A stretch of 64,000 nucleotides of DNA, taken from NCBI RefSeq assembly GCF_003473485.1, contig NC_053043.1:40090576-40154575 (forward strand), read 5' to 3'. The notes below the pieces were generated by a model. It made no database searches. It was not told where the DNA came from and saw only the letters and a program-made list of their open reading frames with translations. This document shows, piece by piece, positions 53,766 to 64,000 of the stretch (position 1 is its first letter; each line of letters starts with the position of its first letter). The stretch comes from Medicago truncatula (taxonomy: Eukaryota; Streptophyta; Magnoliopsida; Fabales; Fabaceae). Made by a program: the position numbers and the translations under genes.

Positions 53766-53965
53766 TGTTCAATTTAGGGTTACTTTGTGTCACTTTAATA
53801 TTTGACGTGTTCCAAATTTTTCTTTATGGATTTGTTTCATTTTGAATGAAAATTTCAAGAGAAAGTTTGCTTGATTGCTATCACTTGTCTCACCATGTCT
53901 GTCAAGAAAAGGAATGAAGCTGTCAATTTGAGGATATTGATTTTTGGTTCAGGAATCAAAGTGAC
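53765..53965 (+). pseudogene. Cyclin-like pseudogene fragment A
   Basis: 53868-53905 (agagaaagtttgcttgattg, then ctatcacttgtctcaccatg) matches exon 3 of the intact D-type cyclin at 59500-59540. The 100 bp before it resemble 56695-56805, the intron before the larger pseudogene copy. No other exons are evident here, so this is a remnant of one more cyclin copy. Confidence 0.6.
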
Positions 53966-56694: not shown

Positions 56695-57543
56695 TGCTCT
56701 ATATCAGTTTGATGTGTTCAATTTCAAGTTTAATGTTTTGTTGTTAACTTTCCAAACTTTCCATTTTGGATTTATGTCACTTTGAATGAAAACTTTTTGC
56801 AATTGAAAATTAGTAAATGTGTTGCTTTTGTTTTTTGAATCTTGTTGCTATAGTGATACAAACTGCTCTAGAAGACTGCTCAACCTGATGCATTTATTAT
56901 GTATCTTGCTATGAACTTTTTTGATCGATACATATCCAAGCACAAAAATTTCTTGGAGGCAACGTATGTTTCTTTTCACTTCCATAGATTTTTCAAGTTT
57001 CTTTTTCTTTGAACTATTATGTATTATAACTGAAAATTCTTTGGTTTCTACAAGGATGTGGAAGTTCGTACTTAAAGACTTCGTTTGATTGTTATCACTT
57101 GTTTCACTTTATCTACCAAGTTGATGAATAAACACTTCTCAGATGATCCATTTTGGGTAAACTTCTTTTCTGTGTCAATTTACTCATCATTAAAAGATAC
57201 ATGAGTTAAATAAGTTGTAGTTACTATAAAATTATCTCAAAACTTTCCAAGTTTACTTTCAATTTTCTAGCATCTTTGTTTTTAAATTCACTAATTTGCT
57301 CTTATGGAAGTTGAGCTTCTCATTCTCCGTGAACTTAATGGGAACTCCAACCTTTGACTGCCTTCACCTTTATGAATTACTATTACTCTTACTTCAAACA
57401 ATTTGGTCGTTTTTATCGTCGTAGCATATATGAGATCTTAAGTCAAGCTCAAGGAGGTAAACAGAAGAAGAAACTCACTTAACATATAACGATATAATTT
57501 ATTAGTTCAACGTTTTCTCCAACAGTGATGCTTGGAGAATATA
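56695..57543 (+). pseudogene. D-type cyclin pseudogene (tandem copy of the intact gene)
   Basis: Matches the intact cyclin in order: exon 2 at about 56885-56965 (DAFIMYLAMNFFDRYISKHKNFLEA; split here as YLAMNFFDRYISKHK), exon 3 at 57052-57170 (RLRLIVITCFTLSTK), exon 4 at about 57300-57460 (LMEVELLILRELN, then frames with tyrosine-rich and RRSI-like sequence) and the following intron with CAACAGTGATGCTTGGAGAATATAT. Exon 1 is missing or unrecognisable, exon 3 has an in-frame stop, exon 4 has several frame changes. Homology stops where a transposon begins near 57543. Clearly dead; a host gene duplicate. Confidence 0.8.
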
Positions 57544-58876: not shown

Positions 58877-61538
58877 ATGGATGATTCCGAACCTGAATTT
58901 CCAATTCCTACTAGGAAAGAACTTGAAATCATAAAGAACTACTTCAATGTCGAATCCGAATTCATCGCCGCAACAGACACCTTCACAACCCCTCATGACA
59001 TTCTTTTTCGCAATCTTGCTGTTTCTATAATCGCCAAGGTCAGTCATCATTTCGAGCTTCGTTTTCTTGAATTTCATCATCGATTCATTGAGAAAATTCA
59101 TGCCATTTGCATGCTCGATTCATGATTTGAAGCTTTGTTTTCGTTGATTTTGCTGAGTTGAATCTGTTCCGTTGTGTTAGATTCTTCTCCCGCTTTGTGT
59201 TTCATGAGAAATTTCTTTTATTCTGTTATTAATTTGTTGTTGATTTCATTTCCGAATCATATCGTTGTTGTGCTGATTTTTTGTTACATTCAGCTCTCGA
59301 GGAGTGATGATCCTGATTCTTTTATTCCGTACCTTGCGATGAACTATTTCGATCGCTTCTTATCGCAGCACAAATTGAATCTGGAGGTAATATTGTTCGT
59401 ATATGTATCTCTTTCTTTGAATTATTTCTCTGTTGAAACTGAAAACTCTCTTTCGTTTTCATAAGGACGTGGAAGGTCGTACTGAGACTGAAAGAGTTCG
59501 TTTGATCGCTGTCTCTTGTCTCACCATATCTTCCAAGATGAGGACAAATTCCTTCTCAGTTGATCGGTTTTTGGAAAACCTATATGTAGGTGTCAATTTA
59601 CTCCGAATTTTAAGTTATGGTTAAATATGTTTGTTATCGCTATTAAATCGTTGCAGAATTTTCAAATTTATTGATCTCAAACATTTATTTGTTTTTAGAC
59701 TCTCATGGAAGACTAAAAATCGATAAAATTGTATATAACTACTCAACAATAACACCAATTTTCTAAACTCTAATTTATGGTTGTATAGCAATTTATGAAA
59801 GAACGGTGAATTGGTACTCGTACAATACTTAGTTTTTACAGACTGAGCCAATTGTTAAATCTTTAGTTGTTTTCGAAATTAGGAGATTCGGTTTTGTTAG
59901 GTCTGATATAAAATTTTGCTTGAATTGTTAAATTCTGAAGTAATGGCTGCACTGTTAAGCTCTTTTTCTTTAGAATGTGGAAATGCTTTCATTCCACATA
60001 CTACTGCATTGAAGTATTAGCCTATTAGGTACAATTTTTTTTTATTGAATTGTTAAATTTACATAGTAAAGTAGTAATATTACTGAGTTAATGTTAGTTA
60101 TAGGATCAATCCTTGCTGTCTATGCATATATGTGACTATAGTTATACTAATTATTGAAGCTGTGGTTGGTTTTTCCCTAAGAGACGATGGAAAAGAAACA
60201 TTTGGGTTCCTAAAACTAAATAAATTTGTTTCCAATGACTATGTTATAGAGCATTGTTTTTAAATTCACTAAATGAACTCACTGGTTGCACAGAGGGACA
60301 TGAATGTGAGGATAACTCCTCCGATGGTAATGAGAATGGAGCTTCTCATTCTCCAAGAACTTCAATGGGCAATGAGATCGGTGACTGCCTTCTGCTTTCT
60401 GAACCACTATTACCCTTATTTCAAAAAATTCTGTGGTTTTAAACGCCGTAGCATTAATGAGATCATAGTTCAAGCTCAAGGAGGTAAACAGAATTTTCTA
60501 TGCATTAATGATTTCATACTTCAAGCTCATTATAATTTGCTATTTCTATGTTTTGTCCAACAGTCTTGCTTGGAGAATATATACTAATATTCATTGGAAT
60601 TTTTCTCTTCTTATTCTGCAGAGCACACCTTTGCTCACTACATGCCTTCTCATATTGCAATCTCCGCTTTTCTGGCTGCTGCCCAAACCAAATATCCCTC
60701 AAAGTATAGCGAAATTGCAGAAGACATTAAGAGCAAAATTGGACTTCAAGTATGTTGATTGAAAACTTAAGTGCATGGCATGTTATGTCTAATAGTATCT
60801 CTATATTTCTCAAAAGACATTAAGAGCAAAACTGTTTTGAGTTTAGGTGTATGAAACAGATATTTCCAGAATCAGTGACATAATTAGGCCATTATACCAT
60901 AAAAATTATAGTAATGACACGTACGAATTACGCTAAAGTTTTTTAAAATGTTCTTCCAGGGGCAGGTGAAAGAATGTGTGAAGAAAATGGTTGATCTTTG
61001 CAATAGATTGAACATCCAGATTGAGAGCACTGAACCAGGAACTCGCTCCACTACAAGTAAAGTTGCGGCAGTACCCCAAGAGGAAATTAAAGAAGCTGGA
61101 ACATCCAAAGAAAATGAAGACGAAGAGTGGACTGGGTTGATCAAGCAAGTACAGGACATGAGAAAGGGGAAGGCGCGGGTGCAGGTGTTGGTGCAGGCGG
61201 AGGAGTTGCCTGATGATGAAGTAACGGTTGCAAGTGGCAACGAGGTAATGGTAGCCGATACATCTGATAAAAAAGATGTAGAAGAAACAAGTCTGCCCAA
61301 GGGCAAGGGCAAGGCAGTGGATGTTGATGATGATAAAGCCAGGGTTGAGGATATAATCCAAAGAGCATTGGTAAAGGAGCCACGGATGGAGAGATCAATT
61401 TCAGAGATTGCAGAGGTTGTAGTACCAAAGAAGCTGATGAACTTTGAGCTGAAATGGCCCACTGATGTTCCATCGCTTGAAGGAGACGAAATACAATACG
61501 CTCGGCCACGACAGTCATTTGGCTGCATAATCAGTTAG
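58877..61538 (+). CDS. D-type cyclin (CYCD6-like) with long charged tail and C-terminal CaaX
   Basis: Regulatory subunit for cyclin-dependent kinases at G1/S or formative divisions. Six exons join in phase to 423 residues: 58877-59038, 59294-59386, 59466-59585, 60294-60483, 60622-60749, 60960-61538. N-terminal cyclin box: YLAMNYFDRFLSQHKLNLE, RVRLIAVSCLTISSKMR, TPPMVMRMELLILQELQW, then the second fold with RSVTAFCFLNHYYPYF, HIAISAFLAAA and ECVKKMVDLC. No LxCxE retinoblastoma-binding motif is seen in the N-terminus, as also recalled for CYCD6;1. The last exon (193 codons with stop) adds about 170 residues rich in E, D, K and V, ending FGCIIS, a CaaX prenylation motif. The tail is longer than in CYCD6;1 (about 300 residues total). 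Start follows a GA-rich leader. Dead tandem copies lie upstream. Confidence 0.88.
60721..60831 (+). repeat. 18-bp copy of cyclin exon 5 sequence inside the next intron
   Basis: AAGACATTAAGAGCAAAA at 60721-60738 (exon 5) recurs exactly at 60814-60831 in intron 5, 93 bp apart. A small local duplication. Confidence 0.8.
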
Positions 61539-63476: not shown

Positions 63477-64000
63477 TCAAAGCCTCTCGAAAAAGTAAAG
63501 ATAGCCCATGTCCTTGGGAGGATTAATGGAAGCCCCTACCTTGTTGTCGTTAAAAATAACCCATCTACCATCTTTCAAGATGTGTGCAACATAGTGACCG
63601 CAGTGTGTTGAGGTTCCAATGTGGCTAACAATTCCCATAAGTCGATATCCTGTGGGAAACCAAGAGAGAAATTCAGTACAACCATTTGTCGAAGTTATAA
63701 AGTTGAAATGAAAACTTGTCCATTCTTCGGGAATAACCATTAACAACCCTATAAGTTCAAATAAAATATCATAACATTAACGAAGACAGGTATCATCATA
63801 TTTTTGAATTATTAATATAGATAATCATCAATAACAGAAGTAATTAGAAATCTAAGATGTGAAAGCAACTCACTTCCTCCTCCATCGGGTAAGTCAGCAT
63901 CATTTGGACCAGATGTAGTGTTTGATGCAGTAGCATCCATGTTGGAAACGGATGCATCGGGATTGCTGAAGATCCAGTCTGTTGCTTTCTCAATGTCACC
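63477..64000 (-). CDS. UBP14: UBP14 ubiquitin-specific protease, C-terminal end (partial)
   Basis: C-terminus of a deubiquitinase of the USP5/isopeptidase-T type that disassembles free ubiquitin chains (Arabidopsis UBP14/TITAN6). Two exons: 64000-63874 (runs off the window) and 63649-63477, joined in phase through an arginine codon ([15 protein letters not shown]). The first contains the end of a UBA domain ([14 protein letters not shown]) and an acidic linker ending DLPDGGG. The second holds the catalytic histidine box [16 protein letters not shown] with GRWVIFND and ends [11 protein letters not shown]. Histidine of HCGHYVAH and the aspartate of FND are in place. Catalytic cysteine, zinc finger and first UBA domain lie beyond the right edge. 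Confidence 0.93.

Follow-up and report, generated by a model that had tools for sequence, protein, structure and literature searches.

A D-type cyclin gene of Medicago truncatula with a CaaX end that is shared with an old intact paralogue

The window, that is, the whole stretch of 64,000 nucleotides analysed here, corresponds to C2:40090576-40154575 of the Medicago truncatula genome (430 Mb; C1, C2, C3, C7 and C8 denote contigs of this genome). On its plus strand, at 58877-61538, it carries a gene of a D-type cyclin, which consists of six exons and encodes a product of 423 amino acids, with no stop in the spliced frame and with GT-AG borders in five of five introns. Exon 1 (58877-59038, plus strand, as are all the other exons) begins with the start ATG at 58877 and was placed by its open frame, a GT donor, a protein match to a copy on C8 and an alignment to a paralogue on C1. 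The four internal exons are each delimited by AG/GT sites. Exon 2 (59294-59386), with the sequence LAMNYFDRFLS, is conserved in the paralogues and begins the core of the cyclin box; exon 3 (59466-59585), also within the cyclin box, encodes a lysine in an SKM motif; exon 4 (60294-60483) encodes the stretch MELLILQELQW and the end of the cyclin box, the alignment with human cyclin D1 covering exons 3 and 4; and exon 5 (60622-60749) encodes a part of the Pfam domain Cyclin_C. Exon 6 (60960-61538), recognised by its open frame up to 61538 and by the composition of its product, encodes the end of Cyclin_C and a tail of about 169 residues rich in Glu, Val, Lys and Asp, closed by a TAG stop. The C-terminal stretch of this tail (61437-61535) comprises a conserved motif, MNFELKW, of a form (MNFxLKW) common to the C1 paralogue, then a drifting linker and a CaaX box, Cys-Ile-Ile-Ser, which together with the TAG occupies 61524-61538 and has its counterpart in the CIIL that precedes the stop of the C1 paralogue.

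Upstream of this gene, at 56872-57455 of the plus strand, a degenerate tandem copy of exons 2-4 was detected by tblastn of the cyclin against the window; it is interrupted by stop codons, and no exon 6 is recognisable in it. A weak fragment at 53859-53912, also upstream of the intact cyclin, is perhaps a decayed copy of exon 3 alone (E=0.19). On the minus strand, an antisense open frame of 216 codons (60884-61534) overlaps most of exon 6 and is likely a by-product of the composition of the tail. Another minus-strand open frame (63477-63776) presumably resembles the end of a ubiquitin-specific protease.

The product was assigned to the cyclins by two Pfam domains, Cyclin_N (E=2e-14, 53.7 bits) and Cyclin_C (E=2e-6, 28 bits), both above the cut-off. 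Its best solved relatives, found with this one query, were the human cyclins D1 (1.9e-8) and D3 (1.5e-6), followed by A2 (3.3e-3) and E1 (0.61). In an alignment with 6p8e and 2w9z, the SKM lysine and the MELL stretch, including its glutamate, are kept as in human cyclin D1, and we take the lysine to be the equivalent of K112 of cyclin D1. The K112E allele of cyclin D1 is inactive (PMC5053626, in excerpt). The LxCxE motif was absent from the whole protein, as read directly, and none of its cysteines has a Leu two residues before it, which bars the protein from the Rb-binding class of D-type cyclins, not from CYCD as a whole. This motif is missing from some plant CYCDs. The nearest plant subgroup is, we assume, CYCD6-like. 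A genome-wide survey of the cyclins of M. truncatula lists CycD6;2 for pods and CycD6;4 for leaves; the words 'prenyl' and 'membrane' are absent from its main text.

The frame of exon 6 had been described as ending in RPRQSFGCIIS followed by TAG, and this is correct: the exon is open from 60960 to the TAG at 61536-61538, and its last 11 codons occupy 61503-61535. It is confirmed that this D-type cyclin gene really ends in a CaaX box, with Cys at position -4, an aliphatic residue at a2 and a permitted residue at X. The preference for farnesyltransferase, which the preliminary description deduced from the Ser at X, agrees with the properties of the Arabidopsis enzyme (PFT), which accepts Ser at this position and farnesylates such ends in vitro (PMC3017772, in excerpt). 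The Cys at -4 is the sole cysteine among the last 178 residues of the protein. The linker preceding it, QYARPRQSFG, is largely hydrophilic with Gly in the last position, as compared by eye only with the refined CaaX motif, which wants a flexible and mostly hydrophilic linker before the Cys (PMC1175975, in excerpt). The net charge over the last 20 residues is -1, and a polybasic second signal is absent.

It had also been cautioned that a match of four residues may arise by chance, and the calculations bear this out. For the strict pattern C[ILVA][ILV][SMQACL] at the protein end, residue usage gives a chance P of ~3e-4, and the strict box was found in 11 of 9803 tetrapeptides preceding stops (six frames, window and five loci), so that a strict CaaX end is expected at ~3e-4 to 1e-3 per C-terminus. 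Two of these 11 boxes are those of the window gene and of the paralogue on C1; in the remaining nine, the open frame leading up to the box is no longer than 72 codons. In Arabidopsis, Cys at -4 occurs in 1342 of 48,265 protein sequences (PMC12609287, section 3.1). As a control, frames of the same genome were read onward from Cyclin_C matches (30 loci of 59 matches); the strict box occurred in none of the 30 and Cys at -4 in one (CYGH), many of these frames running into introns and hence not representing true protein ends. Given these rates, a single match in one gene is not decisive; as a lone match is hardly beyond chance, it is the sharing of the box with an old paralogue that provides real evidence.

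This paralogue (C1:19763733-19765539) is intact and has six exons in the same layout, canonical splice sites and a product of 371 amino acids with Cyclin_N (2e-7) and Cyclin_C (1.4e-4) domains. It ends at its own stop with SIGCSSCIIL, that is, with the CaaX box CIIL and a second Cys at -7, and the stop is located at a similar distance past MNFxLKW as in the window gene. For the C2-C1 pair, a Nei-Gojobori script gave Ks of 1.52 and Ka of 0.51 over 348 codons; as this Ks is near synonymous saturation, the split is old. The tail alone has Ka of 0.68 (0.675) and Ks of 1.64 (1.641), with Ka/Ks of ~0.4; judged from these sequences, the pair is under overall purifying selection, and the tail is looser. 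Identity between the two proteins amounts to 112 of 242 columns over the cyclin part, 23 of 80 over the portion of the tail that precedes MNF, 7 of 15 over the linker and 3 of 4 over the CaaX box, in an alignment that pairs the Cys of the window protein with the Cys at -7 of the C1 protein; an alternative alignment that pairs the two Cys at -4 also gives 3 of 4. The linkers between MNFxLKW and the box differ both in sequence and in length, and the end is Cys-Ile-Ile-X in both proteins. The preliminary description had suggested looking in legume orthologues for last four residues that are kept while the tail drifts, and this is what the old intact C1 paralogue displays, standing in for the orthologues as one pair in one genome. 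The interpretation offered there is supported in part.

The homology of exon 6 between C2 and C1 was supported by shuffling, since none of 5000 shuffles reached the local score for the whole exon. For the last 60 residues minus the last 8, the score was reached by 7 of 5000 shuffles, and it was carried by the stretch ending in MNFxLKW. The significant local alignment of the tails stops at this motif, so the CaaX box is matched by its position before the stop. In the genome of M. truncatula, the MNFxLKW pattern has nine exact matches, two of which lie in long open frames, those of the window gene and of the C1 paralogue. The remaining seven lie in short frames, three of them encoding Phe for Leu, which the pattern permits; the reversed control pattern has four matches.

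Exon-wise searches combined with the reading of loci revealed six places of this family in the genome, of which two are intact and four are damaged. The CaaX box is present in both intact copies, and a cyclin-derived box is present in none of the four damaged ones, two of which have no recognisable exon 6 (one genome). As only two intact members were found, the conservation of the box rests on one pair. The C8 copy (C8:3944692 downward) is young: its four main aligned blocks with the window gene, introns included, reach 84 to 94 percent, and the C2-C8 comparison gives Ks of 0.11 (0.106), Ka of 0.056 and Ka/Ks of ~0.5. Exon 6 of this copy is interrupted behind KWPTD by an insertion of ~850 bases, which derive from an RNase T2 gene and apparently include an intron of that gene; past the insertion, the 3' flank of the window resumes as a 152-column block at 73 percent. 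The loss of the terminal Cys of the cyclin in the C8 copy is due to this insertion of an RNase T2 gene, and not to drift.

A CaaX end of the C8 cyclin itself (...GRVVGCIAA-stop) was considered and rejected: a relative of the inserted RNase T2 on C7 reads LPIPWRSRTSKGRIVGCIV at the same place. The terminal CIAA on C8 therefore belongs to the RNase, and KWPTD is where the cyclin tail ends. The RNase T2 segment (C8 ~3942641 down to 3941793) has a Pfam E=1e-32 on two joined exons and, by eye, a start like that of a signal peptide. The frame is open from the cyclin into the RNase T2, and the locus may possibly be a cyclin-RNase chimera or a dying gene.

Two further degenerate copies are located at C1:19.741 and 19.744 Mb (C1:19741340-19744964). 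The former showed no exon 6. In the latter, the tail encoded by exon 6 is present but contains in-frame stops and lacks the box; it is built of a repeated unit, SDEKDVAKE...VAKGKGEAVDI...VEEVEELSD, broken by the stop codons. A search of the genome for further members with exon 6 of C2 returned only itself and the C8 copy, and that with exon 6 of C1 returned only itself (both at E<=10). Neither C1 nor C2 was recovered with the exon of the other, so members at a comparable divergence may have escaped these searches as well. Among bacterial genome contigs, there were 87 pattern stretches, and none was confirmed as stray plant DNA. Four other cyclin matches of M. truncatula (C3:27124706, 27143146, 27161578 and 27179998) have identical scores and lie ~18.4 kb apart; a large block with a single-frame cyclin has probably been amplified here in tandem in recent times.

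The shared box bears on the explanation that the CaaX-like end was inherited from an ancestor that had it by chance and is unused, the C-terminus being buried, the gene not expressed, or the protein nuclear before prenylation could take place. We consider this unlikely, although it deserves serious attention. The motif is short, the Ka/Ks of the tail is only ~0.4, and with the chance rate given above, a set of tens of thousands of proteins should contain tens of strict ends. In the simplest count, the fraction of identical tail columns (30/95) cubed gives P of ~0.03 that three residues are kept without special constraint. Against this, the box is found in both intact genes at Ks 1.5 despite the change in linker length, and X varies only between residues accepted by prenyltransferases, Ser and Leu. 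A neutral simulation, in which substitutions only were modelled, was run from the C2 end to Ks 1.52: the CaaX box together with the stop survived with a frequency of 0.00016, and the box with the stop given with 0.002, whereas at the tail's own rate these values were 0.004 and 0.018. Neutral survival thus ranges from 0.00016 to 0.018 across the two rates, with the stop either required or given. These results are good evidence, if not final, that the CaaX box is likely under selection.

On balance, we are inclined to think that the product of the window gene is a D-type cyclin that bears, at its own C-terminus, a working CaaX prenylation signal. The gene itself, its box, the box in the old paralogue, the affiliation with the cyclin family and the retention of the CDK-contact lysine can all be read from the DNA. 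The cyclin would be made in the cytosol, where farnesyltransferase, given Ser at X, would put a farnesyl group on the Cys at -4; the last three residues would then be cut off and the Cys methylated at the ER. As a result, the cyclin would be partly held at membranes, bringing a CDK there or keeping it from the nucleus. We infer this lipidation, the hold at the membrane, the recruitment of the CDK and the difference between weak and strong anchoring described below. As there is neither a polybasic stretch nor a second Cys near the box, the anchoring of the window protein would be weak or reversible.

A different lipid is predicted for the sister on C1. Geranylgeranyltransferase I (PGGT1) strongly prefers Leu at X (PMC6866125, in excerpt), and from the preferences of PFT and PGGT1 a farnesyl group is predicted for CIIS and a geranylgeranyl group for CIIL. 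In the C1 protein, with its end GCSSCIIL, geranylgeranylation might be accompanied by S-acylation of the upstream Cys, which would make a firmer anchor. Its cyclin part has also changed: the alignment places Asn at the position of the SKM lysine and shows an altered MELL region, and the protein had no match among solved D-type cyclins at E<=1. At least the C1 member may therefore not be a normal CDK activator. A wider proposal, to which we would give somewhat less than even chances, is that legumes have a lineage of D-type cyclins in which C-terminal prenylation is native and conserved, with two anchor strengths; the CIIS member would be farnesylated, the old sister would carry geranylgeranyl and possibly a second lipid, and the cyclin box of the sister may no longer activate a CDK.

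In the C1 protein, the box has been kept although hallmarks of the cyclin have been lost, which suggests an independent role of the box and would also be compatible with a function that does not involve a CDK. The protein could be prenylated with the lipid serving turnover, protein contacts or a non-CDK scaffold rather than carrying a CDK to the membrane. The sister, with its CaaX box, its Asn in place of K112, its altered MELL and its lack of a solved D-type match, points this way, but the window protein agrees with human cyclin D1 in both SKM and MELL, and we find this explanation rather improbable. Finally, a different 3' end, produced by splicing inside exon 6, or a silent or dying gene seems very improbable: there are four broken copies of the family, and the C2-C8 Ka/Ks of ~0.5 (0.056/0.106), in which one partner, C8, is a damaged copy, points to weak constraint, but the window copy is intact across its six exons, the C1 gene shares the exon layout and has its stop at a similar distance past MNFxLKW, and the 3' flank of the window follows the C8 RNase as expected if exon 6 of the window has the ancestral form.

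The preliminary description knew of no prenylated D-type cyclin, and neither a natural prenylated cyclin nor a D-type cyclin with a native CaaX box was found in the literature searched, outside of which most subscription journals lie. The word cyclin is absent from a 2025 review of plant prenylation (PMC12609287), and no cyclin is among the prenylated plant proteins in PMC6866125, where both text matches are 'cycling'. A D-type cyclin with a real CaaX end shared with an old intact paralogue would, if lipidated, be a novel form of a familiar kind of protein. D-type cyclins are mostly viewed as soluble nuclear regulators of G1. For the cyclin D1 of animals, functions other than proliferation are known from a pool at the membrane, and they have been studied by artificial CAAX fusions (PMC5053626 and PMC13187114, both in excerpt). 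If the proposed prenylation is true, M. truncatula would allow the role of a CDK at the membrane to be studied in a natural setting. The cyclin might then tie the supply of farnesyl to cell division, and it would be a candidate target to explain the meristem effects of plant prenylation mutants.

The window protein resembles plant CYCDs in having Cyclin_N and Cyclin_C, in its closest solved relatives (D1 and D3) and in keeping the lysine of the CDK interface and MELL; it is unlike them in its tail of ~170 amino acids with the terminal CaaX and in the absence of LxCxE. To our knowledge, the nearest natural lipid-anchored cyclin is cyclin Y. Together with PFTK1/CDK14, cyclin Y (CCNY) recruits its kinase to the membrane, but it is an animal protein of another cyclin family and is myristoylated at the N-terminus (PMC8250429, in excerpt). 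The Gly-2 for myristoylation of this type is absent from the window protein, which starts with MDDSEPEF. Among plant CaaX proteins, HSP40 J proteins and the farnesylated metallochaperones AtFP have an end like that of the window cyclin but are not cyclins; when HSP40 lacks the CaaX Cys, the organisation of the meristem and the sensitivity to ABA are changed (PMC6866125, in excerpt). The engineered cyclin D1-CAAX shares with the window protein the combination of a D-type cyclin and a farnesylation box at the C-terminus (PMC5053626 and PMC13187114, both in excerpt). With the CAAX tail of K-Ras, human cyclin D1 (Ccnd1) and Cdk4 are enriched at membranes, and the fusion alters invasion, not proliferation (PMC5053626, in excerpt). 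The enrichment of Cdk4 makes the consequence proposed here physically possible and does not mean that it happens in M. truncatula. Cyclin D1-CAAX is a man-made fusion with a polybasic stretch, whereas the box of the window cyclin is native, old and without such a stretch; if the proposal is right, evolution has made a membrane-tethered cyclin D of the sort that laboratories build artificially.
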